In this document: piece after piece, positions 6,001 to 30,559 of the stretch
How positions within the stretch are numbered: position 1 is the first letter of the stretch
Layout: every line of letters begins with the position of its first letter
From: a virus
Length of the DNA stretch: 30,559 bases
Reading direction: 5' to 3' (one strand)
IMG/VR virus record: IMGVR_UViG_3300028008_000069
Location: 1 to 30,559 of that record
The notes under the pieces: model-generated
The model's input: the letters and a program-made list of their open reading frames with translations, nothing else
Told to the model about the DNA's origin: nothing
The model's database searches: none
Position numbers and translations under genes: made by a program

Positions 6001-9000
6001 AATGTCAATTCATAATTGTAAAAATTTAGTAAACAATAAAGATGTTGTTTTGAGTATACAGTATTGGACATTTAGTGAACCAGGTAGTAATATACACAAT
6101 CAATATCAAATACTAACAGAAGGATTAGGTACAAGTGTGCCTTACGCAGAGATTGAAAATAAATGGATTGATAGTTTAGTTGGATACGATAAACAATCAA
6201 GACCAGTTCCTGATACTAATCTTTCTCCGAGAGAACGTTATGGTATTTTAAATAAACCAAGACAAGGTTGGTTTATTAATAGAACTGAAGCATTAAAACA
6301 ACTTGTTGAAAGAGTTAATAATGTCTTTATAGATAATCTTATTGAAGAAGAAAAGAATTTAGTCAAGTTACAAGATACAGATCCTGCTCCAAGTCAAACA
6401 CTAGGATTGTTTGATGTTACAGTTGACACTGAAATAGATTTACAATTTATTGGTGTTGCACGAGCGACAACTGCTCAAATTACACCAGTTGTTGAAAACG
6501 GAAAAATTGTTAGATTAGAAATTAATAATCCTGGACGTGGATATAGAGTTGCGCCGTCTTATACTATAGAAGGTTCAGGTAGCGGTGCAGAATTTGAATT
6601 TACATTAGATAATTTAGGTAAAATTACAACTGCAACTGTAATAGAACAAGGCAACAACTACGGATCAAATACATTTATAACAGTACGTCCGTTTGCGGCA
6701 CTAGTAACGGCTGATAGTGCAATCAATGGTAAGTGGGCATTATTCAACAGAAATGCTACTACATCTAATTGGATTCGAATTAACAGTCAAGCATATGATG
6801 TAACAAAGTTTTGGAATTATGTAGATTGGTATGCAACTGGTTATAATGCTTTTACAGAAATTGATTATGTAATTACGCAGAGCTATGAATTAGAAAGTCT
6901 AGACGACAAATTTGGAGACGTTGTAAAAATTCTAAATATTGGCGGAGCTGGTTGGTTACTGCTAGAAAAAATTAATGATCTTGACACTACTGACTATACT
7001 GTAAACTATAAAACTATTGGTAAGCAAAACGGCACAATTCAACTGTCGCAAAACTTGTACAACTTACAAAATAGTAGAGTAGGGTTTGATACTCAAACAT
7101 TTGATACACAGTTCTTTGACAGTCAGCCAGTTGAAGAAATAAGAATTATAATGCAAGCATTAAAGCAAGATATTTTAACAGACGATCTTCAAGATGAATA
7201 TAATAAGTTATTTTTTGCAGGACTGCGCTATGTGTTTGCAGAACAAGGTTATGTTGACTGGGCATTTAAAACAAGTTTTGTTAAAGCAAAACATAATGTT
7301 GGTAACTTAACACAACGAGTTACATTTAAAAATGATAGTCTTGAAAGTTACGAAGATTATATACAAGAAGTTAAACCATACACAACAACAATTAGAGAGT
7401 ACCTATCAACATATGATAATGTAGAACGTAGTTCAAGTGTTATTACTGATTTTGATAGCCCTCCAAGTTACGACAATACGTCAACTACAATTGAAACTAA
7501 TAACATACGTTTAATTAACGGACTGCTTACAGGTGATAGCGGCGATCGCTTTGCTAATTATCCAGAAAGATATTGGTTAGAAAATGCTTCGTATGAAATT
7601 ATAGATATTGAAATTAGTGATGCTGGAGAAGGATATGTGTCAGCACCAAAAATTGAAATTGAAGGAAATGCTAAAGCAGAAGCAAGCCTAGGACCAGGTG
7701 GCAAAATTAGTAGTGTTAAAGTACTAAACTCTGGAAGCAATTATTTAACAAGTCCTACAATTACAATTAACGGCGCAAAAAATGATAATGGCAGAGATGC
7801 AAGGTTGAGTGCTGTGTTAGGTAAGAGTAAAGTAAGAACAATGCACACTAAAATTAAATTTGATAGAGTGTCAGGCACGTTCTTTATTACACAGTTAAAT
7901 GAATTAGAAACATTTAGTGCTACAGGATCTAAAACTGAATTTACTTTAAAATGGCCAATGGACATGAGAACTAACACTGTTGAAGTTACTGTAGATGGCG
8001 AACTAGTATTAAACAGTGAATATAGTTATCAAAACGTATATGATGCAGATACTAAACTAAATTACGGAAAAATTAGTTTTGTTAATCCACCAGCCAACAC
8101 ACTTACAGTTCAAGTTACTTACAAAAAAGCAATTGATTTATTAGATGCACAAGATAGAGTTAACTTGTTCTATAATCCAACAAGTGGTCAAATTGGAAAC
8201 GATATCAGTCAATTAATGACAGGAGTTGATTATGGTGGTGTAGAAGTCAAGAGCTTTGAGTTTGGATCACCTCCAGGTTGGGACACTGGCGATTGGTATA
8301 ACGGTGCTTGGGATATATATGATGATTTGTTTGAGGAAGAACTATTCCAAACAGATGGATCAACATTAGTGTTTACTCTTTCTAAACCATTAGAGAATGG
8401 TGTAAAATATAATGTTTATATCAATGGTATAAGAGTTGATGATGAAGAGTATGACGGTACATCAAGTGTTAATAATAAAAATGCATTTATGGAAACGTTA
8501 GTAGGTGACGGAATTGTTGATACACTTACAATTGAAAACGAAAACGGTTATAGAAACTTCTTAGAAACTCAAACAGATGGACAAGATAATCCGCCAGCAC
8601 AAATAATAAAAATTATTAAATCTACTTCAGATGGTGCAAGACTAATTGATTCAGAAAGTTATGATACTGATATTAGTGGTGGCGATCTTGCATACACAAC
8701 TGCAAAAGGTATTAAAGCAGAAGAAATTAATATTGATGGTGACGGCTTTGTTACAGAAACTACAAGTTCAGGACCTGAAGAAACAATTCCAGGGCAAGTA
8801 TTAGATACACTAGACATTACTGTATTTGAACGTCCAGTAGGCGGAAGTAGTTTAATACAAACTACATCATATACAGGCGATGGAGTAACAACTACGTTTA
8901 ACCTTAGACAACGTCCGTATAGTTTTGAAAGTGTAATACTTAAAGTTAATGGTGCTGTACCTGCTACTAACACTTATAAAATAGATTATAAAAATAGTGA

Positions 9001-15972: not shown

Positions 15973-17496
15973 ATGGCATATACAATTGATACATATAGTA
16001 ATAGTACATCTTGGAAAATTGAAGATGGGACTATTGATCAAACCACCGATTTAAAGCTAGTTGGTAAAAACTATGCTGGATACGGTGAGATACAAAACGA
16101 AAACTTTGTTTTCTTACTAGAAAACTTTGCAGGGCAGGCAGAGCCGCCACGTAAAATACAAGGTCAAATATGGTTTGACACTGGTAATAGTAAATTAAAG
16201 TTTTATGACGGAATTAAATGGCGCACAACAGGTGGCGCAGAAGTTAGCACAACAGTTCCAACAGGTCTTAAAGAAGGTGACTTTTGGTGGGATCAAAATA
16301 ACGAGCAACTTTATACATACAATGGCGGAGACTTTGTACTTATCGGACCCCAAAGTGCAGGATCAGGCCAGACACAAATTGTAAGTCGCTCATTACGTGA
16401 TACAGGTGGTACGACAAGAGGCGTTATCACAGCAGTTGTAAATGATGAAACAGTATTTGTTACTAGTTCACAAGACTTTACAATTGATACGGCTGATGTT
16501 GATAGTAACATTCCAGGATTTGATAGAATACGTCAAGGTATTACACTAAAGAACACTTTAAATAGTTCCGGCGGTGTTACATCAGGCGATTGGAGAATTG
16601 TTGGTACAGCAACAAATGCTGAGAAATTAGGCGGAGCGGCAGCCAGTGAGTATGTAAAAAATCAAACAGCAAACTTTGCAGGACTTGCACGTTTTAGTGA
16701 CACAGGTTTACAAGTTGGCGATGACGGTGACTTGAAACTTAAAGTTGAATTAGACAACAAAGCAGTTATTGCAAACGAAAACGGATTACAAATTGAATTC
16801 CGTGCTAAAAATTCATTAGGTACTATACTAAACCCAATGAGAATATTTGCAGATGCAGTTATTCCAGGGTTCCAAGTTGGTACAGAATCAGCACCAGGTG
16901 GGCCAGTAGTTGGTACATCAACATTAGGTTCTGTAGATTATCCGTGGCCAAACGTATTTGCAAACAATGTAACTGGTTTAGCAAGTATAGCTTCATCGTT
17001 AAACGTAGGTGCATACGATCCAGTTAATCCATTAGCAAATGCAAAATATCCATCAACAGCAGACGCGGCAAATACTATTGCAGTTAGAGATGCCGCAGGC
17101 GATATTTACGCAAATAAATTTCAAGGTGTTGCAACTGAAGCTCAATATGCTGACTTAGCAGAAAAATATACTACTGATAAAGAATATCCAGTAGGTACAG
17201 CAATGTGTGTAGGCGGAGATGCTGAAACAACAGCGGCTAAGACAAGTAGTATTAGTATTGGTGTTATATCAGAAGCTCCTGCGTACTTAATGAACAAAGA
17301 TTTAGAAGGGCAAGCAATTGGTCTTAAAGGTCGTGTTCCAGTAAGAGTAAAAGGCCCAGTGAAAAAAGGTCAACCAGTGTATGCATGGGAAGATGGTGTT
17401 TGTTCTACAGTAGCAACTACATCAATCGTAGGTGTTGCACTAGTTACTAATGACGCTGAAGAAGAGAAATTAGTTGAGTGCGTTTTAAAGGTATAA
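15973..17496 (+). CDS. Tail fibre protein with YADLAEKY-type C-terminal domain
   Basis: A 507-residue fibre protein and third member of the paralogous set. Residues 1-125 are the shared N-terminal domain (DGTIDQTTDLKLVGKNYAGYGE, ENFVFLLENFAG, GQIWFD, GDFWWD, LIGP; given as separate short blocks). The middle holds DWRIVGTATNAEKLGGAAAS. From Tyr392 it carries YADLAEKYTTDKEYPVGTA and then a compact beta domain with VGVALVTND near the end. This end type is common on marine phage fibre proteins by recollection. GGGG at 15961-15964, 8 bases ahead, supports the ATG, and a late octamer lies at 15938-15945. The shared N-terminus suggests all three proteins dock to the same site in the virion, with the ends giving different binding. 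Confidence 0.75.
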   Translation: MAYTIDTYSNSTSWKIEDGTIDQTTDLKLVGKNYAGYGEIQNENFVFLLENFAGQAEPPRKIQGQIWFDTGNSKLKFYDGIKWRTTGGAEVSTTVPTGLKEGDFWWDQNNEQLYTYNGGDFVLIGPQSAGSGQTQIVSRSLRDTGGTTRGVITAVVNDETVFVTSSQDFTIDTADVDSNIPGFDRIRQGITLKNTLNSSGGVTSGDWRIVGTATNAEKLGGAAASEYVKNQTANFAGLARFSDTGLQVGDDGDLKLKVELDNKAVIANENGLQIEFRAKNSLGTILNPMRIFADAVIPGFQVGTESAPGGPVVGTSTLGSVDYPWPNVFANNVTGLASIASSLNVGAYDPVNPLANAKYPSTADAANTIAVRDAAGDIYANKFQGVATEAQYADLAEKYTTDKEYPVGTAMCVGGDAETTAAKTSSISIGVISEAPAYLMNKDLEGQAIGLKGRVPVRVKGPVKKGQPVYAWEDGVCSTVATTSIVGVALVTNDAEEEKLVECVLKV

Positions 17497-17499
17497 ATA
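17492..17499 (+). promoter_or_regulatory. T4-late promoter octamer TATAAATA (perfect)
   Basis: TATAAATA matches the T4 late consensus in all eight positions. It overlaps the stop codon of the fibre gene ending at 17496 and lies 29 bases before the ATG at 17529, with AGGAAG at 17515-17520 as ribosome site. It probably drives the pair of structural genes 17529-19523. Confidence 0.7.
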
Positions 17500-19526: not shown

Positions 19527-19555
19527 TTGACAAACTGTTAATTCGAGTATATACT
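19527..19555 (+). promoter_or_regulatory. Sigma70-type (early) promoter of the accessory cassette
   Basis: The -35 box TTGACA (19527-19532) is perfect, the spacer is exactly 17 bases (19533-19549) and the -10 box TATACT (19550-19555) differs from the consensus by one base. It sits just after the last virion gene and 26 bases before the ATG at 19581. It differs in kind from the late octamers found upstream, and lacks a visible T4 MotA box, so host RNA polymerase could use it early in infection. Confidence 0.8.
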
Positions 19556-19568
19556 ATAACAATATACT
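19546..19568 (+). repeat. Palindrome and repeated ATATACT at the -10 box and start region
   Basis: AGTATATACT (19546-19555) is a perfect 10-base palindrome covering the -10 box. ATATACT occurs again at 19562-19568, after the likely transcription start, giving an inverted pair with AGTATAT at 19546-19552. It could be an operator, but A+T-rich DNA forms such pairs easily. Confidence 0.35.
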
Positions 19569-19580
19569 TGGAGATGTCGT

Positions 19581-19928
19581 ATGGATGAAAGACTAGAAAA
19601 AGCACTTGAGTTCTCAAACTACATGGTTACGTTGAATAATCAACGTAGAATTGTAAGAGAACAATTTTTAGAAAACTGTGTTCACTATTTAAATGGTGGA
19701 AAGTTTTCAGTTAACAGAGATTTAATTACATTTTGTCAAACACTAGTAACTAGAGATCAATCTAGTGCAGTGCTTATTGACGACAATGATACCCCAATTG
19801 AAGTAGAAGATATTAATAAATTCTTAGATGACATCCTTGATATTTACTTTACTACAACATACGAGTACTACGATAAGTTTAACGAAATCAAAAAGAATCG
19901 AACAGTAGAAGGGTTAGTTAATTTATGA
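19581..19928 (+). CDS. Conserved small phage protein, unknown function
   Basis: A 115-residue acidic, mostly helical protein starting MDERLEKALEFSNYMVTLNNQ. It has LNGGKFSVNRDLITF in the middle and VLIDDNDTPIEVEDINKFLDDILDIYF after it, ending NRTVEGLVNL. I recognise this sequence type from many marine T4-like phages near the structural region, where it is annotated as hypothetical. GGAGA at 19570-19574 gives a strong ribosome site. It is the first gene after the sigma70-type promoter and overlaps the next gene by 4 bases (ATGA). No catalytic motif, Cys pair or membrane segment is seen. Its place at the head of the operon might suit a regulatory or chaperone role, but that is a guess. Confidence 0.7.
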   Translation: MDERLEKALEFSNYMVTLNNQRRIVREQFLENCVHYLNGGKFSVNRDLITFCQTLVTRDQSSAVLIDDNDTPIEVEDINKFLDDILDIYFTTTYEYYDKFNEIKKNRTVEGLVNL

Positions 19929-20785
19929 GCAAAGGCGTATTGCTTTTCGCACAAAATAATAATACTGTCGACTATGTTAAACAAGCAATATATTGTGCAA
20001 GAAAAATAAAGAAGCATTTAGGTATTGGCGTAGCTATTGCTACAGATAATGCTGACTATTTAAAAAGCCAATATCCTTATTATGAAAAGTATGTAGATCA
20101 TATTATCACTCTTGAATGGGCAGAGTGTAATCAAAAGAGAACATTCCGCGACGGCACAATGAGCAAACGTGATCTTGAATGGCGTAACTTTGATAGAAGC
20201 CTAAGTTATGATATAACTCCGTTCGATGAAACAATAGTAATGGATACTGATTTTATCATAGGCAATAATTTACTCAATCACGCATTTAACAGTAACGAAG
20301 ATTTTTTAATATGGCGTTACATAACTGATGTTAACATGGACAGACCAGACGAACATAGGTTTAATAAAATTAGCGATAGAAGTGTTGACATGTTTTGGGC
20401 TACAGTCTTTTACTTTAAAAAGACAAAACCAATGGAAGACTTTTTTGAACTAATAAAACACATTAAAGAAAACTGGCACTTCTACAGATTAACATATCAA
20501 ATTCCAAGTAAAATTTATAGGAATGATTTTGCATTTAGTATTGCTATACACATATTTAATGCACACCAAAGAACAGTATGGCCTAAGCCCTTACCAGGTA
20601 GATTATGGTTTACTAGTGACGCAGATATTTTAATGAAGATGGATGATGAAGAATATACTTTCTTATTAGACAAACGACATTGGAAGGGTCATTATCATGT
20701 AGGTGCAATTAAAGATTGCAATATTCATATTATGAACAAGTTTAGTTTAGACAGGGCAATTAGCGAGGCACTATCAGATGAATAG
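19925..20785 (+). CDS. GT-A-type glycosyltransferase-like protein
   Basis: A 286-residue protein. The start GVLLFAQNNNTVDYVKQA is a first beta strand plus helix as in GT-A sugar transferases, followed by a second strand IGVAIATDNADY. Asp107-Thr-Asp109 in ETIVMDTDFII is the metal and nucleotide-sugar DxD motif at the normal place. Late residues HWKGHYHVGAIKD could supply a C-terminal metal-binding His, as in GT8 enzymes. No membrane segment is present, so it should act in the cytoplasm on an intracellular or membrane-linked acceptor. It overlaps the upstream gene by ATGA and the next by 8 bases. The next protein is its paralogue (same first strand and DxD). Donor sugar and acceptor are unknown. 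Confidence 0.65.
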   Translation: MSKGVLLFAQNNNTVDYVKQAIYCARKIKKHLGIGVAIATDNADYLKSQYPYYEKYVDHIITLEWAECNQKRTFRDGTMSKRDLEWRNFDRSLSYDITPFDETIVMDTDFIIGNNLLNHAFNSNEDFLIWRYITDVNMDRPDEHRFNKISDRSVDMFWATVFYFKKTKPMEDFFELIKHIKENWHFYRLTYQIPSKIYRNDFAFSIAIHIFNAHQRTVWPKPLPGRLWFTSDADILMKMDDEEYTFLLDKRHWKGHYHVGAIKDCNIHIMNKFSLDRAISEALSDE

Positions 20786-21596
20786 AGGATTTTGCTTACT
20801 AGCACAAAACAATGAAAAAACTGATTATGTAAGACAAGCATATGCACTTGCTAAAAGTTTACATAGATATAACACAGATCAAAAAATTAGTTTAATAACT
20901 AATGATGATATTCCTAACGAGTGGAAAGAAGTATTTGATCAAATAATACCTATACCTTGGTCAGACGATGCAGATGAGTCTAAGTGGAAAATAGAAAATA
21001 GATGGAAAGTATATCACGCTAGTCCATATGATGAAACTATTGTATTAGAAGCAGACATGCTAATACTAACTGATATCACACACTGGTGGGAAGAACTTGC
21101 AAAGCGTGAATTATTTTTTGTTAGTAATGTTAGAACATACAGAGATGAAGTTGTAACTAATAGATTTTATAGAAAAACATTTGATGCTAATGAACTACCA
21201 AACTTATATAGTGCATTGCATTACTTTAAAAAAGGTGATGTAGCAAAAGAGTTTTATAATCTATTAGAAATTATTGTTAACAACTGGCAGTTATTTTACG
21301 GCAAGTATGCAAAAGAAGAATATCAAAAATGGTGTAGTATTGACTTATGCGCGGCAATAGCAAGTAAAATACTAGATAACGAAAAAGAAATTACAGATCC
21401 AAATAGCTATGTTACTTTTACACATATGAAGCCAAGGGTACAAGGTTGGTACAACATTCCTACTAAATGGACAAGAGCAATAGGAAAGTATTATAGAGAT
21501 GACGGAACATTGTTATTAGGAAATCATTTACAAACAAGAGTATTACATTATGTTGAAGATGAATTCCTCACAGACGAATTGCTGGAGAACTTATAA
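20778..21596 (+). CDS. GT-A-type glycosyltransferase-like protein, paralogue of upstream gene
   Basis: A 272-residue protein. It opens RGFCLLAQNNEKTDYVRQAY, nearly the same block as the upstream gene, then ISLITNDDIP as a second strand. Glu91-Ala-Asp93 in ETIVLEADMLI takes the place of the DxD motif; ExD variants occur in GT8-type enzymes. YVTFTHMKPRVQGW carries a His close to the end that could bind metal. The gene overlaps its predecessor by 8 bases and its stop shares one base with the next start (TAATG). It looks like a tandem duplicate that has since diverged, perhaps adding a second sugar of the same chain. Activity despite the Glu change is plausible but unproven. Confidence 0.6.
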   Translation: MNRGFCLLAQNNEKTDYVRQAYALAKSLHRYNTDQKISLITNDDIPNEWKEVFDQIIPIPWSDDADESKWKIENRWKVYHASPYDETIVLEADMLILTDITHWWEELAKRELFFVSNVRTYRDEVVTNRFYRKTFDANELPNLYSALHYFKKGDVAKEFYNLLEIIVNNWQLFYGKYAKEEYQKWCSIDLCAAIASKILDNEKEITDPNSYVTFTHMKPRVQGWYNIPTKWTRAIGKYYRDDGTLLLGNHLQTRVLHYVEDEFLTDELLENL

Positions 21597-22162
21597 TGGA
21601 GCAAACGTTTTATTTAAACTTTGAAGAAGATACTGGTCATATATGGAAAGCTACGAACGAATGTGACGACTCAACTCCGTATATAGAAGTTGATGCAGAA
21701 ACTTGCTCTCAGTTTACAACTGGTGCAAAAGACATGAACGATTATATTATCATTCCTTCGTTAACTGACAAAAAGTTTGAAATTAAATTTAAACACAGAG
21801 ACCTAACAGAATTTGATGTAGATAAAAGCATACATAGAATAGAGATAAGCAATACAGATGATCATAAAAATGCATTTATGATTATACAAGAAAATGGATA
21901 TTGGACAATTAAACTTTCTAAGCATATGCAGGAAACACTTACGTCTACAGCATATTATAAGGATAAAACCCAATTAATATATGTAACAAAGAAAAATGAC
22001 CCCAATATTTTACTAGACACAATGACAATAAAGTTGTATAATGTATTGTATAATGATGAATATAGACTAGAGAATCAAGATGTTAATGTAGCCAAAAGTA
22101 ATGATGTTAGTTTATTTTGTGGTAAAGTATTTGAAGAATATAAACATGTGGTGAGAGTATGA
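21596..22162 (+). CDS. Unknown protein of the sugar/radical SAM cassette
   Basis: A 188-residue protein that I do not recognise. It is rich in alternating hydrophobic and polar residues that suggest beta strands, for example YIIIPSLTDKKFEIKFKH and IQENGYWTIKLSKHM, and has only two Cys (one at about residue 23, another near 34) plus one near the end. There is no signal peptide, membrane segment or clear catalytic motif. It starts on the shared A of TAATG with the upstream glycosyltransferase and overlaps the next one by ATGA, so it sits between two sugar transferases and may be a binding partner or acceptor protein. That role is only inferred from position. Confidence 0.55.
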   Translation: MEQTFYLNFEEDTGHIWKATNECDDSTPYIEVDAETCSQFTTGAKDMNDYIIIPSLTDKKFEIKFKHRDLTEFDVDKSIHRIEISNTDDHKNAFMIIQENGYWTIKLSKHMQETLTSTAYYKDKTQLIYVTKKNDPNILLDTMTIKLYNVLYNDEYRLENQDVNVAKSNDVSLFCGKVFEEYKHVVRV

Positions 22163-23049
22163 GTATAAAAGTTGTAGACCAAGATATTATATTTCTGTCG
22201 TATGATGAGCCTAATGCAGAAAAGAACTATGCAGACTTGTGTAGTAAAATTCCGTGGGCAAAACGTGTACATGGAGTAGAAGGCTCAGATGCCGCACACA
22301 AAGCGTGTGCTGACCTAAGTGAAACAGAATATTTTGTTACTGTAGATGCAGACAATATTGTTGATCCAGAATTTTTAAATCAAGTAGTTGATTATGAAGC
22401 ATTAGGACTATCAGCAGAACATGTGTTTAGTTGGTGTGGCAAGTTACATGTTAACGGACTAATGTACGGCAACGGCGGATTAAAAATGTGGACACGTAAG
22501 TTTGTACATAGTATGAAAACACACGAACACTCAGAAGAGGGTGATGAACGTGGTAAAGTAGAATTTTGTTTTGATGACAAGTATTATCAGTTTAATGATA
22601 ACTTCAGCACTTCTTATACTAATGCAACACCGTGGCAGGCATGGAGAGCAGGCTTTCGAGAAGGTGTCAAGATGTCTTTGGATCAAGGTGCTAAAGTAGA
22701 TGACCTTCGTAAGGTGTGGTGGCAGAATTATCAACGTTTGCTTATTTGGAGTCAAGTAGGTGCAGATGTTAGACATGGTATATGGAGTATACTAGGTGCA
22801 AGGCAAGGCTGTTATCTAACAAATTGTACACCTTGGGATTATGCTAATGTACGTGACTTTGAATGGCTAAACAACTTTTGGGAAACAGAAGTAAAAGATG
22901 TAGATCCACTTGAAACATCTATTCATTTAGGAACTGAGATACTAAAAGGCACAGGTGCCGATATATCTACTACACCTCTTGATGAACAACAAAGTAAGTT
23001 TTTTAAAAGTGTATATCAAAACACTCCAAGGATAATTAGGACTAAATGA
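22159..23049 (+). CDS. GT2-like glycosyltransferase family protein
   Basis: A 296-residue protein. The first strand VVDQDIIFLSYDEPNAEKNY, then WAKRVHGVEGSDAAHKACADL, then Asp63-Ala-Asp65 in YFVTVDADNIVDPEF follow the order of a GT-A fold: nucleotide-binding strand, HxV.G...A...A loop, and DxD. This loop and DxD block is a pattern I know from marine phage proteins labelled glycosyltransferase. The second half, with WQAWRAGFREGVKMSLD and many Trp, is unlike the two upstream enzymes, so it belongs to a separate lineage. It overlaps both neighbours by ATGA, and the next gene is a radical SAM enzyme. Substrate unknown; cytoplasmic by lack of membrane segments. Confidence 0.65.
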   Translation: MSIKVVDQDIIFLSYDEPNAEKNYADLCSKIPWAKRVHGVEGSDAAHKACADLSETEYFVTVDADNIVDPEFLNQVVDYEALGLSAEHVFSWCGKLHVNGLMYGNGGLKMWTRKFVHSMKTHEHSEEGDERGKVEFCFDDKYYQFNDNFSTSYTNATPWQAWRAGFREGVKMSLDQGAKVDDLRKVWWQNYQRLLIWSQVGADVRHGIWSILGARQGCYLTNCTPWDYANVRDFEWLNNFWETEVKDVDPLETSIHLGTEILKGTGADISTTPLDEQQSKFFKSVYQNTPRIIRTK

Positions 23050-24419
23050 GTAACGAACAGCGTATAAAAATACTAGAAGAAAAGCGTGAAAAGATAAACA
23101 ACGTAAGTTGTTCATTCTGTACGGCTAAGTGGTTACAAACTACGCTACTATTACAAAACGGTTACAATCACAGTTGCCATCATCCTGCTCCACATAAGAT
23201 TCCGTTGCATGAAATTAAAGCTGATCCAGCCGCATTACATAATAGTAGACACAAAAAGAAAATGCGTAAAATGATGCTAGAAGGCAACCGCCCAAGTGAA
23301 TGTGGGTATTGCTGGAAAATTGAAGATTTAGATAAAGACTATTTTAGTGACAGGCATTATAAAACAAGTGATACTTGGGCTTGGGATAAATTTGAAGACA
23401 TTGCTAAAAGTAATTGGCAAGACAATGTGTATCCAAGTTACTTAGAAGTTTCATTTAGTAATGCGTGTAATTTTGCTTGTGCATATTGTTCACCTGAGAT
23501 TAGTAGTAAATGGATGGAGGATATAAAACAAAACGGAGAGTATCCAACTACACACGGTTCACATAATTTAGACTATTTAGAAAAGTCTGGTAAAATGCCT
23601 TACAAGAATAGAGAACATAATCCATATGTTGAAGCGTTTTGGAAATGGTTTCCTGATGCACTACCTCATTTAAAAGTATTGCGTATTACAGGTGGCGAAC
23701 CTACTATGTCAAAAGATACTTGGAAGTTATTAGATTATCTTACTGAAAACCCACGCAAAGGTTTAGACATATCAATTAACACCAATGGGTGTGTTGAAGA
23801 TAAACTAATTGACAAACTAATTTTAAAAGTTAATCAACTTGCTGAAGTAGGTGTAAAGGTTGATGTATACACTAGTTTAGAAAGCACAGGCGCACAGGCT
23901 GAATATGCTCGTGACGGACTTGACTATATAAAATGGTTAGACAACGTAGATAAAATATTAAAAGAAACAAAGTCGTCAGTTGCAATTATGACAACAGTTA
24001 ATATTCTTAGCTTGCCAACATTCATTGACTTTATAATGACTGTTATAGATTTTAGAAAAACATACAACACTAGTTTTGAAGTAAACAGAATACCACTAAG
24101 TGTTAACATAATGCATTGGCCACCACATTTACAATGCACACTATTAGATAAAGAAGAAAGAATACCATATGCAGAAACTATTGAAAAGTTTTGCGAAACA
24201 TGGTTAAAATATTATAGAAAAGACAAATTTGCTAGAATATATCTTGAGGAGTTTGATCAAATACAAAGGTTATGTGATTATTTGCGTACAACAGAATCAG
24301 CAACTGAACACAGAGCTGACTTTGTAAGATACATACATGCATACGATAAGAGAAGAAATAAAAACTTTGTGGAAACGTTCCCACAATACATAACACATTT
24401 AGAGGAATGGAATGGCTAA
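23046..24419 (+). CDS. Radical SAM enzyme with N-terminal twitch-type cluster domain (1)
   Basis: A 457-residue enzyme. Cys141, Cys145 and Cys148 in CNFACAYC form the CxxxCxxC site for the SAM-cleaving [4Fe-4S] cluster, and G216-G217-E218-P219 (RITGGEPTMS) binds the SAM amino group. The N-terminal 100 residues hold Cys22/Cys25, Cys44, Cys86 and Cys89 with HKKKMRKMMLEG and ECGYCWKIED. That is the layout of a SPASM/twitch auxiliary cluster domain placed before the core instead of after it. YDKRRNK (433-439) near the end recurs in the next gene. It overlaps the GT2-like gene by 4 bases and the next radical SAM gene by 8. It may carry out a hydrogen-abstraction step on a sugar or peptide; the substrate cannot be read. 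The radical SAM assignment is firm. Confidence 0.9.
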   Translation: MSNEQRIKILEEKREKINNVSCSFCTAKWLQTTLLLQNGYNHSCHHPAPHKIPLHEIKADPAALHNSRHKKKMRKMMLEGNRPSECGYCWKIEDLDKDYFSDRHYKTSDTWAWDKFEDIAKSNWQDNVYPSYLEVSFSNACNFACAYCSPEISSKWMEDIKQNGEYPTTHGSHNLDYLEKSGKMPYKNREHNPYVEAFWKWFPDALPHLKVLRITGGEPTMSKDTWKLLDYLTENPRKGLDISINTNGCVEDKLIDKLILKVNQLAEVGVKVDVYTSLESTGAQAEYARDGLDYIKWLDNVDKILKETKSSVAIMTTVNILSLPTFIDFIMTVIDFRKTYNTSFEVNRIPLSVNIMHWPPHLQCTLLDKEERIPYAETIEKFCETWLKYYRKDKFARIYLEEFDQIQRLCDYLRTTESATEHRADFVRYIHAYDKRRNKNFVETFPQYITHLEEWNG

Positions 24420-25860
24420 AAAACCTGATGAATCTCTACAACAGTATAGAGATAGAGTACTAGATAGCAAAAGCAAAAGTTTTTGCGGAGCCAAATGGTA
24501 TAACGCTACTACATGGTTAGGTAGTGGAACAACAGCTAGTTGTCATCATCCACCTGCGCATCAAATTCCATTAATTGAAATACAAGACAATCCGTCTGCA
24601 ATTCATAATACTAAGCATAAAAAAGAAATGCGCCGTATGATGCAAAAAGGCGAGCGTCCACGCGAGTGTGAATATTGCTGGAAGATGGAAGACATGAAAA
24701 AGGATGCTGTTAGCGACAGAACTTTTAAAAGTATTATCTACTCTGACGAAGAATTACAACAAGCATATGAAGCAGATGCAAACGAAAATACTAATCTTAA
24801 AACTTTTGAGATTGCATTTGATAGAACTTGTAACTTAGCATGTAGTTATTGTAATGCAAGTTTCTCAACTACATGGGCAAAAGACATCAAGAAGAATGGC
24901 CCGTACGAAAATTTAGTTAGTGATGGCGCAGGCGCCTTTCATCAAGACGGTAGTTGGGCGGCTCCATATGACAACGATGAAGACAATCCGTACATACAAG
25001 CATTTTGGAAATGGTGGGAAAGCGGCCTAGCAGATAGTTTAGAAGAACTACGTGTTACAGGTGGCGAACCTTTAATGAGTGGAAATACTTGGAAATTGTT
25101 TGATTGGTTTAATGCACAAGATACTAATATGCGTTTTGCTATTAACAGTAATCTAATTGCTAAAGATAGCATTATTGATAAGTTAATTGATAAGACAAAG
25201 GGTATGAAGCACTTTGATTTATATACAAGTTGCGAAGCAGTTGGTGAACAAGCAGAATATATACGTGATGGTTTAGATTACGACATGTGGCTAAGAAATA
25301 CTAAAAGGTTACTTACTGAAGGTAACTGTAACAATATTAATATTATGATGACTATTAATAGCTTGTCGTTGTTTAGTATTACAGAATTTTTAGACGAAGT
25401 GTATAAACTAAAAGAACTTACACAAAGTAGAACACCAACAGTTAGTGTAAACTTATTGCGCTTTCCTAGTTTCCAAAGTCCGTTAGCATTACCTAATCAT
25501 ATCAAAGACTATTGCCATAACAAACTAAACACTTGGTGGCAAGAACGTAAAGACGACATTGGCTGGCACGAATTTGAAAAGGCAAGTATTGAACGTTTGA
25601 TAGATTACTTAGTAACTGTAGATGCTCCGCATAGACGTACAAGTAATCCTACTACATTATGGCGTGACTTTAAAACATTCTATCAACAGTATGATGTACG
25701 CAGAAACAAAAGTATATATGTGTTTCCTAAAATATTAACAGATTGGATTGAAAGTATTCCTAGTACTGATATTGAAGTACAAGCACTTGCAGAAAAAGAA
25801 GGTTGGATATTAAAACCTGACAATAAAAATATAGACGAGCCTTTAGCAAAGTATGATTAA
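24412..25860 (+). CDS. Radical SAM enzyme with N-terminal twitch-type cluster domain (2)
   Basis: A 482-residue paralogue of the upstream enzyme. Cys140, Cys144 and Cys147 (CNLACSYC) bind the catalytic cluster, and G217-G218-E219-P220 is the SAM-binding motif. Cys25, Cys44, Cys86 and Cys89 fall at exactly the positions of the upstream paralogue, so four Cys for one auxiliary cluster are conserved, whereas the upstream Cys22 is replaced by Lys and is likely not a ligand. TASCHHPPAHQIPLIEI and RPRECEYCW are shared. YDVRRNK (427-433) precedes a Phe-Pro as in the paralogue. It overlaps both neighbours by 8 bases. Keeping two such paralogues side by side suggests two different substrates or two steps, or a heterodimer. 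Activity is likely because all key residues are present. Confidence 0.9.
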   Translation: MAKKPDESLQQYRDRVLDSKSKSFCGAKWYNATTWLGSGTTASCHHPPAHQIPLIEIQDNPSAIHNTKHKKEMRRMMQKGERPRECEYCWKMEDMKKDAVSDRTFKSIIYSDEELQQAYEADANENTNLKTFEIAFDRTCNLACSYCNASFSTTWAKDIKKNGPYENLVSDGAGAFHQDGSWAAPYDNDEDNPYIQAFWKWWESGLADSLEELRVTGGEPLMSGNTWKLFDWFNAQDTNMRFAINSNLIAKDSIIDKLIDKTKGMKHFDLYTSCEAVGEQAEYIRDGLDYDMWLRNTKRLLTEGNCNNINIMMTINSLSLFSITEFLDEVYKLKELTQSRTPTVSVNLLRFPSFQSPLALPNHIKDYCHNKLNTWWQERKDDIGWHEFEKASIERLIDYLVTVDAPHRRTSNPTTLWRDFKTFYQQYDVRRNKSIYVFPKILTDWIESIPSTDIEVQALAEKEGWILKPDNKNIDEPLAKYD

Positions 25861-27202
25861 TTTGTACTACGATACATTAGGTGACGACACCGTACCTATT
25901 CCTAACGGAACAAAACTTTGGGAGTATGGTGTAAACACTAAACGTATTCCTAAAGCAGTTGATGCACATTTAATAGTACATGAGTATACATACTTTTTTA
26001 ATTGTATAAAAGCATTAGGATCTCCGTTTCAGTTATTCACTGGCAAGGAAGATTGTAATAATTTATTCTATCCTTTAGAATTAAATCCTCAACATGCATT
26101 AAAAGAAGATGAAGATATATTAGATTATATTCCAACCAAATCTATTAAACGTATTAGTAAAGGCAAAATGAAGATGTTATTGCTTATGCCTTCTATTAGT
26201 AGCGATTATAGATATGTTTGGAAGTTGCGTAAAAAAATAGATAATCTTACCGGTTCAGGTATTCCACGTGAACAAATATATGTTGTGCTAGGAGATATAA
26301 ATCAAACATACAGAAACTTACTAAACACAAAGAATGTATTTGGTATAGACTGGAATCAAATTTATATGCAAATTGCACTAAAGGCAAGATATGCAATGGA
26401 AGATTTTAGATGGGTATTTAATAATGCTTTTGCCGCGTGGCCAGGTAAAGAAAAACTAAAAGCTGAACAATTTGATATAGATAACTGGAACCCTAAAAGA
26501 TTGTATTCTGCGTTTACTGGCAAAGCAACGTTACATAATACGTGTTTTGTATCTGATTTAAAATATCACGGATTAGATAACTTAGGAAAATACAGTTATA
26601 ATATTGGATATGAAAATGTTAATCATAACTATAAAGATTTTAGAATAACTGATAGATCTAAAGGCGAAGAGTTTATTGAAACTAAGAAACATTTTGTTAA
26701 AAATCTCTCTAAGAAAACAATTATTATGGATATGACATTTGATCAAAAGCGGCACAACGGAAATGATCAATATATTAATAAGTCAATATACGAAGACAGC
26801 CTTATTAATATTGTAAGTGATAATTGGATGCCAATGATGGATGAAAATTATTTAGACGAAACTAATGTACTTGCACCAGGAAAATTTATATGGTTGCAAA
26901 TAGCCAAAGCTCACCCCTTTATGGTGCTAGGGTGCTTAAATACAATTAACTATATTACAAATCAAGGATATTTTTCTAATAACTTTTTAGTTAATGAAGA
27001 TTATGATAGAGTGTCTAGTATTACAAAGACATCAGAAATGATTTGTAATAATTTAAAAATATTAAACGAGCTTACAGACAGCGAAATTAGAGATAAAATG
27101 GAATTTATAAAACCTTACTTAAAAAAGAATAAAGAAAAGTTTTTTGAAAGACCTAATAAGCGAAAGTTTAATTTACTATTTGAAGAGATGAAATATGAGT
27201 AA
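25853..27202 (+). CDS. Large sugar-locus-associated protein with HPF.V.G signature
   Basis: A 449-residue protein with no signal peptide or clear membrane segment. Residues 345-361 read FIWLQIAKAHPFMVLGC, followed near 380-390 by NEDYDRV. This matches a signature (K.W..I...PF...G......L...GF...F...DE.YD) that I recall from many marine phage and bacterial proteins beside glycosyltransferases, usually annotated as hypothetical or glycosyltransferase-like. The middle section KMLLLMPSISSDYRYVWKLRK followed by IYVVLGDIN looks like Rossmann-type strands. It may thus be a GT-B-like transferase, with the signature in the donor-sugar half. It lies between two radical SAM genes and overlaps each by 8 bases. 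Function is inferred; confidence in the gene is high, in the role low. Confidence 0.6.
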   Translation: MINLYYDTLGDDTVPIPNGTKLWEYGVNTKRIPKAVDAHLIVHEYTYFFNCIKALGSPFQLFTGKEDCNNLFYPLELNPQHALKEDEDILDYIPTKSIKRISKGKMKMLLLMPSISSDYRYVWKLRKKIDNLTGSGIPREQIYVVLGDINQTYRNLLNTKNVFGIDWNQIYMQIALKARYAMEDFRWVFNNAFAAWPGKEKLKAEQFDIDNWNPKRLYSAFTGKATLHNTCFVSDLKYHGLDNLGKYSYNIGYENVNHNYKDFRITDRSKGEEFIETKKHFVKNLSKKTIIMDMTFDQKRHNGNDQYINKSIYEDSLINIVSDNWMPMMDENYLDETNVLAPGKFIWLQIAKAHPFMVLGCLNTINYITNQGYFSNNFLVNEDYDRVSSITKTSEMICNNLKILNELTDSEIRDKMEFIKPYLKKNKEKFFERPNKRKFNLLFEEMKYE

Positions 27203-28460
27203 TGATCTAAAAAACAGTCCTAACTTTTGTGTAGCACCTTGGATGCACTTACATGTTATTAACGATGGTAGGTCATTTGCATGTTGTCAAACACCATTGC
27301 GTGATGAAAATAGTTTTGGTAATGTAAAAACACAAACACTAGACGAAGTTATGAATAGTGATCTTGCTAAGAAAATGCGTAAAGATATGCTAGACGGAAA
27401 ACCGTTACCTAGTGCATGTGAGCGTTGTGTAAATAAACAAGCCAATAATATGAATACTATGCGTACTGGATTAAATTCTAAATGGTATGATAGAACTAAA
27501 GATGTTATTGCTACAACAGCAGACGATGGTACACTTCCTAAGCCTAAATTAAAATACTGGGATTTTAGATTTAGCAACTATTGTAACCTAGCATGTACAA
27601 CTTGTTCACCTTTGTTTAGTACACAGTGGGCAAACGACTTTCAAAAATTACATCCAGGTGCAGACAAATATAGTGAAACTAAACTTATTGACCTAACTGA
27701 AGCAAATGTATTTTGGGACGATATTGAAAACAATATTGACTCAATGGAAGAAATACACTTTGCTGGCGGCGAACCATTAATCATGCCTGAGCATTTACGC
27801 ATACTTAAACTTCTTGATGCACAAGAAAAGTTTGATGTTGAATTGCGTTATAGTACTAATGGTACAACACTTGGTCAAAAAAAGTATGACTATTTAGAAT
27901 GGTGGAAGAAATTTAAATATGTACACCTTAGTCTTAGCATTGATGGCGCAGGCGATGCGTTTGAACACATTAGATATAAAGGCAAATGGGACGTTACACT
28001 TGCAAACCTTAAAAAGATTAGAGCAAGCGGAGCCGCAGATTATTGGTTCCATCCAACTGTCAGTGTACTAAACATTTTCCGACTAACTGAGCTACATGAA
28101 GTATTACATAAAAATGATCTAATGCCGCTGGAAGCAATTCATCCACAGCGTGGGTTTCATATGGAAAATTACTGGGTTGATAGATTTCATATCAATCCAT
28201 TGTTTACGCCAAACTATTACAGCATTACAGTTATGCCAGAATTATTAAAAGAGCAAGCCGCTGATAAGATTACAAAGTATGGCAAGAAATTAGAAGCTGA
28301 TACAGGTATACCGTTTAGTGGTTGGCAAGCAGTTATTGACTTTATGTACCAAGAAGACAAGAGTATGTTATGGAATCAATTTAAATGGAAAAGCAAACAA
28401 ATTGATGATGTAAGAGGCACTAATGTATATGCTATAAACCCTGAGTTCAAAGATGCTTAG
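27195..28460 (+). CDS. Radical SAM enzyme with N-terminal SPASM/twitch-like domain (3)
   Basis: A 421-residue radical SAM protein. Cys130, Cys134 and Cys137 (CNLACTTC) bind the catalytic cluster and G191-G192-E193-P194 (HFAGGEPLIM) binds SAM. Its first 80 residues read like a classic C-terminal SPASM half moved to the front: Cys12 (CVAPWMHLHV), NDGRSFACC (Cys30/31), SFGNVKTQTLDEVMNS, a KKMRKDMLDG helix and Cys75/Cys78 (CERC). It lacks the His-rich SCHHP block and the YDxRRNK end of the two upstream enzymes, so it is from a different branch. I recall the N-terminal twitch arrangement as a family known in phages and bacteria. It overlaps its neighbours by 8 bases. Substrate unknown; assignment firm. 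Confidence 0.9.
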   Translation: MSNDLKNSPNFCVAPWMHLHVINDGRSFACCQTPLRDENSFGNVKTQTLDEVMNSDLAKKMRKDMLDGKPLPSACERCVNKQANNMNTMRTGLNSKWYDRTKDVIATTADDGTLPKPKLKYWDFRFSNYCNLACTTCSPLFSTQWANDFQKLHPGADKYSETKLIDLTEANVFWDDIENNIDSMEEIHFAGGEPLIMPEHLRILKLLDAQEKFDVELRYSTNGTTLGQKKYDYLEWWKKFKYVHLSLSIDGAGDAFEHIRYKGKWDVTLANLKKIRASGAADYWFHPTVSVLNIFRLTELHEVLHKNDLMPLEAIHPQRGFHMENYWVDRFHINPLFTPNYYSITVMPELLKEQAADKITKYGKKLEADTGIPFSGWQAVIDFMYQEDKSMLWNQFKWKSKQIDDVRGTNVYAINPEFKDA

Positions 28461-29301
28461 AGGTAATGCGTTTCTTCCTTATCTTATGAGCTCGCCGGCT
28501 AATGTAAAGTCGCTCGAGTACCTAAGAACATTTGGTGTAGGCGAAGTGCTTACTAAATCAGTTAAAAATTTAAAAACAAAACTACCGTTCGTTAAACCAA
28601 AAGCATATGAAACGTTAGCTATTAATCAAGCAGAACAAGATATACTAGATCCTAATACTGATTGGAAATATTACATTAACAAGTATGGATTTAGAAATGA
28701 ATGGGACTTAGACTCTAAAAAAGAAAAAATAGGATTCTTTGGATGTAGTTTTACATTTGGTGAAGGTATTCACAATGACGATACGTTTGTTAACATTGTT
28801 AGCAACACACTACATATGAGTCCTATAAATTTAGGAGTTGGTGGATCAGGATTAGAAAGAACTACTAGAACTTTTGCCGCGGCCACTAAAGTAATAGACT
28901 TTGATTATGCAGTTGTAACATTGCCTGCATGGTTCCGTCAACTACATGTAACTAAAGAAGGAAAGTTAATTAATATTATTCCTTATTATCCTCATAATGA
29001 TTTTGAAAAGTTAAATGAAATATATTCATCATTTGATGAAGACTTTTTTGTTAATCAAGCAATAACATATATTAATTGGATAGGAGATATTGCAACAGCA
29101 AATAATATAAAGTTAATTTTATGCTCCTGGGATCATCCATTAAATGAATTATGTCAATTAATTTATCCAGATATTACTATAGATCCTTTTCCTAATATTG
29201 ATGACAAGTGTGCAAGAGATAAAATGCACCCTGGTCCAAAGTCTCAAGCGGCACACGCAGAGCAAATTATAAAGGCATTTGATGATAGAGCTTGGGTTTA
29301 G
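28453..29301 (+). CDS. SGNH/GDSL-family hydrolase
   Basis: A 282-residue enzyme. Block I is GCSFTFGEG (residues 97-105) with nucleophile Ser99. INLGVGGSGLE after it gives the oxyanion Gly of block II. Asp256-x-x-His259 in RDKMHPGPKSQ is the catalytic Asp-His of block V. No signal peptide is visible, so it acts in the cytoplasm. SGNH enzymes of this kind remove or move acetyl and other acyl groups on sugars, which fits the glycosyltransferases upstream. The classic block III GxND is not evident; LPAWFRQLHV stands where it should be. It overlaps the radical SAM gene by 8 bases, and the next gene starts inside its last 20 bases. Deacetylase or acyltransferase action cannot be separated by reading. 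Confidence 0.75.
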   Translation: MLRGNAFLPYLMSSPANVKSLEYLRTFGVGEVLTKSVKNLKTKLPFVKPKAYETLAINQAEQDILDPNTDWKYYINKYGFRNEWDLDSKKEKIGFFGCSFTFGEGIHNDDTFVNIVSNTLHMSPINLGVGGSGLERTTRTFAAATKVIDFDYAVVTLPAWFRQLHVTKEGKLINIIPYYPHNDFEKLNEIYSSFDEDFFVNQAITYINWIGDIATANNIKLILCSWDHPLNELCQLIYPDITIDPFPNIDDKCARDKMHPGPKSQAAHAEQIIKAFDDRAWV

Positions 29302-30247
29302 AAACATTAAAGATGAAGTGAAATATATTCATATCAAACCACACGATACTGAGTTAGCAAACGTATGGCTAACACAATTTGATAGATTACTTGAAACCCA
29401 TCAAAAAAAGATATTCCAAAAAAATTTTAGTCTATTAGGATTGCACAATAACTACAGAACATTAGAACACATCTGTGATGATTTAGATAGAAGTATTGCA
29501 ACTATAAACTACTATTCAGACTATAAAATTGAAGATAACTTTGGTGCATTACGTTATGGATACAATCAAATATTATTAAACGTGCTACATCATCATTTTG
29601 AAACAGCACAAGGCCAACTATGGAACCCTAGTAGTGTATTAGCAAATGCTAACGGAAAAACTAGATTAGCAATTTGTTATCTAAACCATTGCTGTCACGA
29701 ACTTGAAGCATGGTACGAAACAACAGATATAGAAGCAGACGGATATCGCAATGGTTACTTTTACTATAATCTGCTAGGCATACAAGAACGCATCGAATTA
29801 GATCCAAAGTTTAAAAAGTATTTTACTAAAGACGTTGAAGACGGTATGGTATATTTGCATTACGCACAAACAGGTAAAACTTGGTACGAAGCATACCTTG
29901 ACAATGATGATGTAGTTACAGCAGATGGTATTTCTGAACATCGTGTAATTAGCGGTGAATTTAATTTTTACTTTGGCACAGGATATGAACTACCATCAGA
30001 CGATAAGTTTACAAGTTGGTTAGAGTCAAAAGGTGTTGATCCTAAGGATGAACAACTAGCACTAGGATATGCACCAGTTGGTAAAATACAAAACTTACCT
30101 GATTTAGAAGCACAAGAATTTTTTAAAGAGTACACAGACTTTTATAGTATTGAGTATAACAACAAAAGAATAGAATATGACTTTAGACACAACGATGAAA
30201 ATTATATTAATCTACTTACAGAGATTTGGGATAAGTGGGGACAATGA
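29282..30247 (+). CDS. His/Cys-rich protein of unknown function
   Basis: A 321-residue protein; ATG 29282 is preferred over TTG 29279 because AAAGG (29271-29275) lies 6 bases ahead of it. Two clusters could bind metal: His103-His104-His105 with Glu107, and His136-Cys137-Cys138-His139 with Glu140 (NHCCHELEAW). Both look helical, as in a helical bundle with metal ligands, and Trp/Tyr-rich segments follow (RVISGEFNFYFGTGYELP). I do not know the family. It sits between the SGNH hydrolase and a fourth radical SAM gene, overlapping the first by 20 bases and the second by 4 (ATGA). A metalloprotein partner for the radical enzymes is possible but only inferred. Confidence 0.6.
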   Translation: MIELGFRNIKDEVKYIHIKPHDTELANVWLTQFDRLLETHQKKIFQKNFSLLGLHNNYRTLEHICDDLDRSIATINYYSDYKIEDNFGALRYGYNQILLNVLHHHFETAQGQLWNPSSVLANANGKTRLAICYLNHCCHELEAWYETTDIEADGYRNGYFYYNLLGIQERIELDPKFKKYFTKDVEDGMVYLHYAQTGKTWYEAYLDNDDVVTADGISEHRVISGEFNFYFGTGYELPSDDKFTSWLESKGVDPKDEQLALGYAPVGKIQNLPDLEAQEFFKEYTDFYSIEYNNKRIEYDFRHNDENYINLLTEIWDKWGQ

Positions 30248-30559
30248 GTAACGTACCTAATTTAGAAAGAGCTGTAGTAGAAGTATTTGGCGGCTGTAAT
30301 TACAAATGTCAAATGTGTCCACAAACTACCGGACGTGGCAAAGACTGGACACGTAAGATGCCATTTGATATGTTTGAAGATATATTAGATCAGTTGCCAG
30401 GTAAGCCTGTGATTAACTTAGAAGGTTCAGGTGAACCAACAATGGCAAAGGATTTACCACGTTACATTGAAGCATGTACTAAGCGTGGCTTGCCTAGTTT
30501 TATGTACAGCAACGGAAGTTTCTTTAGCGGACACTTTATGCAGGACTGTATTGATGCAG
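30244..30559 (+). CDS. Radical SAM enzyme without N-terminal twitch domain, 3' end outside window
   Basis: The ATG at 30244 overlaps the previous stop (ATGA) and the frame stays open to the end of the window, 105 residues. Cys18, Cys22 and Cys25 (GGCNYKCQMC) form CxxxCxxC only 17 residues from the start, so no N-terminal cluster domain is present, unlike the three upstream enzymes. Residues near 60 read NLEGSGEPTM, where SGEP takes the place of the usual GGEP that binds SAM; this variant is common in the SPASM-type radical SAM enzymes. Any auxiliary domain would be at the C-terminus, which cannot be seen. It continues the same operon. Confidence 0.85.
   Translation, partial: MSNVPNLERAVVEVFGGCNYKCQMCPQTTGRGKDWTRKMPFDMFEDILDQLPGKPVINLEGSGEPTMAKDLPRYIEACTKRGLPSFMYSNGSFFSGHFMQDCIDA

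Follow-up and report, generated by a model that had tools for sequence, protein, structure and literature searches.

A conserved phage gene cassette combining radical SAM enzymes, glycosyltransferases and an SGNH-like protein, with a possible role in glycan tailoring

A co-inherited gene cassette beside phage tail genes

Why should a phage carry, side by side, genes for glycosyltransferases, several radical SAM enzymes and an SGNH-like protein, and what might they make together? To our knowledge, dense radical SAM chemistry is not something phages are known for. An earlier note had pointed out an operon that brings an SGNH protein together with GT-A-type glycosyltransferases and several radical SAM enzymes in IMG/VR record IMGVR_UViG_3300028008_000069, and the analysis reported here upholds that description. 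The window analyzed is the whole of this record, a linear fragment of 30,559 bases; all cassette genes and promoter elements located in it below are on the plus strand.

The upstream two thirds of the window encode T4-type virion proteins, including a collar-domain fibre and a virion structural protein of about 3732-3762 aa (92-11290; partial match to phrog_10938). The baseplate wedge protein is nearest to those of Atu_ph07, Phosso and SCTP-2 (38%), and because of this similarity we regard the source of the window, a marine giant phage, as a distant relative of these jumbo phages. A cyanophage or pelagimyophage lineage is unsupported by the baseplate protein, whose best match is to Atu_ph07-type phages.

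From position 19581 to the contig end there are 12 same-strand ORFs, which overlap by 1-23 nt at every internal junction; the overlaps had been described before, with one gene missed and the count put at eleven. The order cap-GT1-GT2-unk188-GT3-rSAM1-rSAM2-unk449-rSAM3-SGNH-unk322-rSAM4 is kept in about 20 viral contigs, so that the set does co-occur elsewhere, and the DxD motifs and Cys ligands on which its reading depended are conserved in the homologues. Comparison of the window with one related contig (L006) gave dN/dS values of 0.03-0.23 in 10 of 11 cassette genes, with synonymous sites saturated in unk322. Since the order recurs in this many contigs under purifying selection, the cassette is not a chance assembly; judged by gene order, catalytic residues and dN/dS, it is a functional, co-inherited gene set. 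The first gene (cap, 19581..19928) encodes a small conserved protein of 115 aa without assigned function, 70-90% identical in close relatives and about 40% in distant syntenic ones, and unk188 (21596..22162; 188 aa) is syntenic and fast-evolving (44-78%). Genes unk449 and SGNH are far more variable than their neighbors, which would fit parts that set specificity.

The cassette had been thought to run off the window, and extension through a 79,098-b contig, which is 99-100% identical to the window where the two overlap, recovered its continuation for ~12.5 kb past the window end. Encoded there, in order, are the full rSAM4, GT4, rSAM5, a 200-aa methyltransferase-like protein and rSAM6-10, followed on the opposite strand by rSAM11-13 and a QueC-like protein; after the QueC-like gene come Asp/Asn hydroxylase-like proteins and then a fibre gene with a major-tropism-determinant (Mtd-type) N-terminus. 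A substrate gene, suggested earlier as possibly lying beyond the window, was looked for in the extension, and no dedicated one was identified.

Glycosyltransferases

Three proteins had been singled out as GT-A-type on the basis of DxD or ExD motifs, and for two of them family relationships could be recovered. The profile of GT2 (20778..21596) matches glycogenin (E 6e-6), and its (E/D)xD motif is conserved, indicating a GT8/GT-A-like enzyme. GT1 (19925..20785) has an invariant DxD and is homologous to GT2; its own PDB match, to glycogenin, is weak (E 0.56), and its assignment to GT8 (GT-A) is made through GT2. GT3 (22159..23049) is a probable GT-A glycosyltransferase with a DxD invariant in 17 sequences, although its family similarity is weak: the match to the Pfam GT2 family, which spans the DxD, lies below the cut-off (E 0.018), and a profile search against the PDB found no relative.

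A further candidate is unk449 (25853..27202), for which the best PDB fold matches to an AlphaFold2 model (pLDDT 82) are largely GT-B enzymes, with E values from 1e-3 to 0.1 and none below 1e-3. From its modelled fold this protein is probably a GT-B glycosyltransferase. The unknowns, earlier counted as three, number four, with unk449 among them.

Radical SAM enzymes

Three of the enzymes had been described as having an N-terminal cluster domain, in agreement with their membership in NCBIfam family NF033640 (N-terminal twitch radical SAM; curated cut-off 170 bits; E values here from 6e-92 to 1e-109). These are rSAM1 (23046..24419; 1.8e-96, 324 bits), rSAM2 (24412..25860; 6.4e-92, 309 bits) and rSAM3 (27195..28460; 1.5e-109, 367 bits), the last of which also matches the Pfam SPASM and Radical_SAM domains and is of the twitch/SPASM type; at least three proteins encoded downstream score above the same cut-off. 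The CxxxCxxC motif, the GGEP motif and four N-terminal Cys residues (C25, C44, C86, C89) are invariant in rSAM1-3, as are all Cys ligands of rSAM1. Only rSAM2 falls under the Pfam cut-off (23.4 vs 29.5 bits), yet every ligand is present and it passes the NF033640 threshold. The fourth enzyme, rSAM4 (30235..30559), is cut by the contig end and matches Pfam at 2.8e-08; a full copy in a near-identical contig (L027:10969-11958) has 330 aa and a C-terminal SPASM domain, and the earlier identification stands. With a CxxxCxxC motif and a Radical_SAM domain in each, rSAM1-4 are, by sequence, true members of the radical SAM superfamily. We know of no reaction assigned to the N-twitch enzymes of NF033640.

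The 79-kb contig contains 13 Radical_SAM matches within 19.3 kb (about 42.2-60.8 kb), four of them inside the window. The number had been called unusual at four, and unusual it is, but the figure of four was a truncation artefact and the true number is at least 13. Chance clustering is ruled out, with all 13 genes in 19.3 of 79 kb. Contigs of relatives carry 8-18 radical SAM genes, whereas nine reference phages carry 0-6 (none in SCTP-2, P-SSM2 and phage G; one each in T4, HTVC008M and PBECO4; four each in Atu_ph07 and Phosso; six in Vibrio phage K566). Core-only fragments, which are shorter or more distant (G008), have three. A viperin-type antiviral role was considered and rejected: rSAM1-4 score 22-34 bits against NF038283 (cut-off 180), and their pVip matches are weak and at superfamily level only.

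The core module

The SGNH-like protein (28453..29301), a putative hydrolase or acyltransferase, has Ser, Asp and His motifs that are invariant in 13 sequences. The Ser within G(C/D)SFTFG and the DxxH are invariant, and the block I Asp is replaced by Cys in most members. No Pfam family scored above threshold, and a PDB profile search returned spurious small GTPases only; the motifs (Ser, DxxH) agree with the SGNH hydrolase proposed earlier, and it is from them that the putative identity is drawn. Its neighbor unk322 (29279..30247) has 49 invariant columns over 15 sequences, and a model of it (pLDDT 74) had no PDB fold match below E 0.16, so that this core partner is at once conserved and matchless among solved folds.

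A search with unk322 returned 51 loci, many of them redundant, and in 44 of these a radical SAM gene lies at most 4 kb away. The core rSAM1-rSAM2-rSAM3-SGNH-unk322 is found again in unrelated phages, in some with glycosyltransferases and in others without, and either beside tail genes or elsewhere; a methyltransferase-like protein and a NodU-type carbamoyltransferase often accompany it. Within the flanks read in HTVC008M-like and other phages, the core stands without neighboring glycosyltransferases but with these two proteins, and it adjoins curli and carbamoyltransferase genes rather than tail genes. HTVC008M itself has carbamoyltransferase, 2OG oxygenase and curli genes at the corresponding place and lacks the radical SAM module there, which suggests gain or loss of the module. 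On other island-bearing contigs there are further genes, for a UDP-glucose dehydrogenase, an NAD-dependent sugar epimerase, a DegT sugar aminotransferase and a carbamoyltransferase.

Promoters and timing of expression

The 57-nt gap upstream of the cassette contains a sigma-70-type promoter, TTGACA-N17-TATACT (19527..19555; 11/12 match), in accordance with the single promoter proposed for these genes. Of the 18 distinct homologous gaps, whose spacers have diverged, 15 have TTGACA-N17-TATA(A/C)T, or a variant differing by one base, at the equivalent position, and per gap at most 3 of 300 shuffles reach such a match. GT4 has its own sigma-70 promoter, also conserved. The tail genes, in contrast, are preceded by T4-type late promoter motifs: TATAAATA upstream of t301 (17492..17499), the sole exact copy in the window, recurs in all 13 distinct homologous gaps; t507 has GATAAATA before it in all 7; and NATAAATA is located upstream of t204 and of the downstream Mtd-type fibre gene. 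Because a host-type promoter precedes the cassette and late motifs precede the tail genes, we place the cassette outside the late tail operon; these sequence elements indicate that it is probably transcribed separately from the adjoining tail genes and earlier than them. The split yields a testable timing prediction.

It also bears on a virion protein as the target, which the earlier note had named as one option. On this proposal the tail fibres, or other virion proteins whose genes lie close by, would be modified by the glycosyltransferases and radical SAM enzymes, with an effect on adsorption or stability. The cassette follows tail genes in all eight loci found through t301, which represent the window lineage, the Mtd-type fibre gene stands at its far end, and protein glycosylation is possible for glycogenin-like GT8 enzymes. 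The separate host-type promoter, as opposed to late motifs on the tail genes, and the cores that adjoin curli and carbamoyltransferase genes instead of tail genes weaken this proposal, and we consider a virion target unlikely.

Host-type promoters are not confined to the cassette: elsewhere on the 79-kb contig, a nuclease-like gene and a MoxR/VWA-type pair (identities read from sequence) likewise have strong sigma-70 matches upstream of them. Their position before recombination-nuclease-like genes could be taken as support for DNA hypermodification, in which the island would make or attach an unusual group on phage DNA as protection against restriction, using carbamoyltransferase and QueC/QueE-like proteins. 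A precedent exists in phage carbamoyltransferases for which 5-hydroxymethylcytosine can be a substrate (PMC8670742), and a QueC-like gene is present in the island. The match to such a 5-hydroxymethylcytosine carbamoylation system fails, however, on its pathway partner, a thymidylate synthase/dCMP hydroxymethylase family member, lacking in 9 of the 10 contigs, which are all incomplete, and on the carbamoyltransferase, none of which was found in the 79-kb contig. The cassette is moreover situated in the tail region, and in the published set carbamoyltransferases adjoin group-1 glycosyltransferases in unmodified contigs (PMC8670742). We therefore regard DNA hypermodification as improbable.

Relatives in Bdellovibrionota

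The best relatives in bacterial genomes belong to Bdellovibrionota. We collected 46 rSAM1 loci, mostly from this group and a few possibly from phage contigs; GT-B enzymes are encoded in 12-13 of them, an ABC-2 permease and ATPase in 11, a carbamoyltransferase in 7, an rSAM2-type gene in 9 and a PqqD domain in 7. About a quarter of the chromosomal relatives are located beside GT-B glycosyltransferases and polysaccharide-type ABC exporters. Homologues of rSAM1 and rSAM2 are sometimes in tandem at Bdellovibrionota loci (e.g. L058, L067, L080), some of which include a carbamoyltransferase, a methyltransferase-like protein or unk322, as in the phages. The loci with exporters use GT-B enzymes, and no GT1 or GT2 homologue was found in the chromosomal loci. 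The phage rSAM1 and rSAM2 sequences form clades with support of 1.0 and 0.999, respectively, the phage rSAM2 clade being nested among Bdellovibrionota proteins, and deeper branching is similar between both trees, as expected for a unit travelling together.

Peptide maturation is a common role of SPASM and twitch radical SAM enzymes, and those of the cassette might accordingly tailor a ribosomal peptide or protein, with SGNH and unk322 as accessory proteins. PqqD domains and small S74 proteins in some bacterial relatives point in this direction. The window proteins, on the other hand, contain no PqqD-type recognition domain at E 0.1, no short candidate precursor was found in the cassette, whose smallest gene encodes the conserved 115-aa protein, and several glycosyltransferase genes are within the operon. 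Peptide modification is, in our judgment, decidedly unlikely.

Several bacterial loci are worth recording individually. A Bdellovibrio contig (L087:9183-11368) encodes a small S74 chaperone-like protein, PqqD and rSAM1 in adjacent genes, where a peptide link is possible, and the arrangement is partly repeated in L054, L071, L075 and L089. A Bdellovibrionota contig (L080:3074-15070) has an eight-gene array of the same radical SAM families with no glycan genes in reach. Contigs binned as Pelagibacterales, Rickettsiales, Verrucomicrobia and Neomarinimicrobiota (L077, L081, L102, L074, L044) carry phage tail or cassette genes and are apparently mis-binned phage.

Proposed function

The reading we favor, tentatively and at slightly less than an even chance, is that of an infection-stage island that assembles or tailors a glycan, most plausibly altering the host envelope. 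The cassette would be the first part of a large island whose products build an oligosaccharide in infected cells and modify it chemically. GT1-3, the GT-B-like protein and the downstream GT4 would add sugars, the radical SAM enzymes, as a conserved set with SGNH and unk322, would introduce changes by radical chemistry, and in many relatives the methyltransferase-like protein and the NodU-type O-carbamoyltransferase would finish the groups. The host-type promoter would allow expression apart from, and probably before, the adjoining tail genes. The host envelope is favored over the virion because of the promoter split and the cores away from tail genes, and a surface remodelled in this way may block competing phages; the glycan substrate, the timing and superinfection exclusion as the purpose are what we infer from these observations.

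That a glycan is built or decorated had been suggested earlier, and context favors this part of the suggestion, through the sugar dehydrogenase, aminotransferase, epimerase and carbamoyltransferase genes and the bacterial GT-B enzymes and ABC exporters. Against this reading, the phage island yielded no lipid carrier, flippase or exporter dedicated to the task. Against a glycan speak also the cores in phages with no recognized glycosyltransferase in the flanks read, and radical SAM arrays without glycan genes at bacterial loci L068, L073, L078 and L080. The PqqD domain and small S74 protein at several bacterial loci could mean a peptide substrate, and GT3, the GT-B-like protein and SGNH are assigned by weak similarity or motifs.

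A bolder version, which we think somewhat unlikely, is that rSAM1-rSAM2-rSAM3-SGNH-unk322, often with the methyltransferase-like protein and carbamoyltransferase, constitutes a mobile module shared horizontally among marine giant phages, akin to Bdellovibrionota chromosomal genes and making, on infected cells, a glycan of new chemistry tailored by radical reactions. If so, N-twitch radical SAM enzymes would be a new glycan-tailoring class, and the fold of unk322 would be new among enzymes. The conserved phage module, with its bacterial counterpart, offers a tractable way into the large orphan family NF033640 and into the possible remodelling of host surfaces by marine phages.

Comparison with known phage gene clusters

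Pelagimyophages, which are T4-type marine phages, have a host-recognition cluster, bordered by VrlC and gp14, that forms a large variable island beside the tail fibres (Zaragoza-Solas et al. 2020, PMC7029224); it is rich in glycosyltransferases, GT8 being the commonest, and has radical SAM cassettes, and its authors infer modification of the host O-chain (PMC7029224). The window island shares with it the position near tail fibres, glycosyltransferases including GT8, and radical SAM genes. It differs in having an ordered core that includes SGNH and unk322, a separate promoter, and 8-18 radical SAM genes per contig; the cultured HTVC008M has one radical SAM gene, and the window phage is nearer to Atu_ph07/SCTP-2-type jumbo phages by its baseplate protein. 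An enrichment of radical SAM and glycosyltransferase genes has also been reported for phages of the Tasman Sea (PMC7150976). The cultured Vibrio phage K566, like the island, has adjoining radical SAM genes, and its genome has six in all, but these are 23-27% identical and the phage has no detectable SGNH, unk322 or GT2 homologue. In relation to NF033640, to which rSAM1-3 belong along with at least three proteins encoded downstream, the cassette is distinguished by combining several members with glycosyltransferases, SGNH and unk322.

In the open-access literature we found no earlier report of the conserved core, its scale, the promoter split or the bacterial counterpart, and no paper on radical SAM and glycosyltransferase genes in jumbo phages or on Bdellovibrio twitch enzymes. 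Radical SAM cassettes near marine-phage tail genes are already known from pelagimyophages; it is the other four features that seem new in the literature searched.

Other genes on the island-bearing contigs

One island-bearing contig (G015) encodes a tryptophan-halogenase family protein (L188:17147-18511; 7.9e-75) near nitroreductase-like and ligase-like genes. A 275-kb contig (G017) with 18 radical SAM matches carries a fatty acid desaturase gene (L186:7834-8619) and several sugar-nucleotide and B12-type radical SAM genes. The 79-kb contig encodes a phage porphobilinogen deaminase, HemC (L025:793-1530; Pfam 6.5e-57), adjoining recombination-nuclease-like genes.
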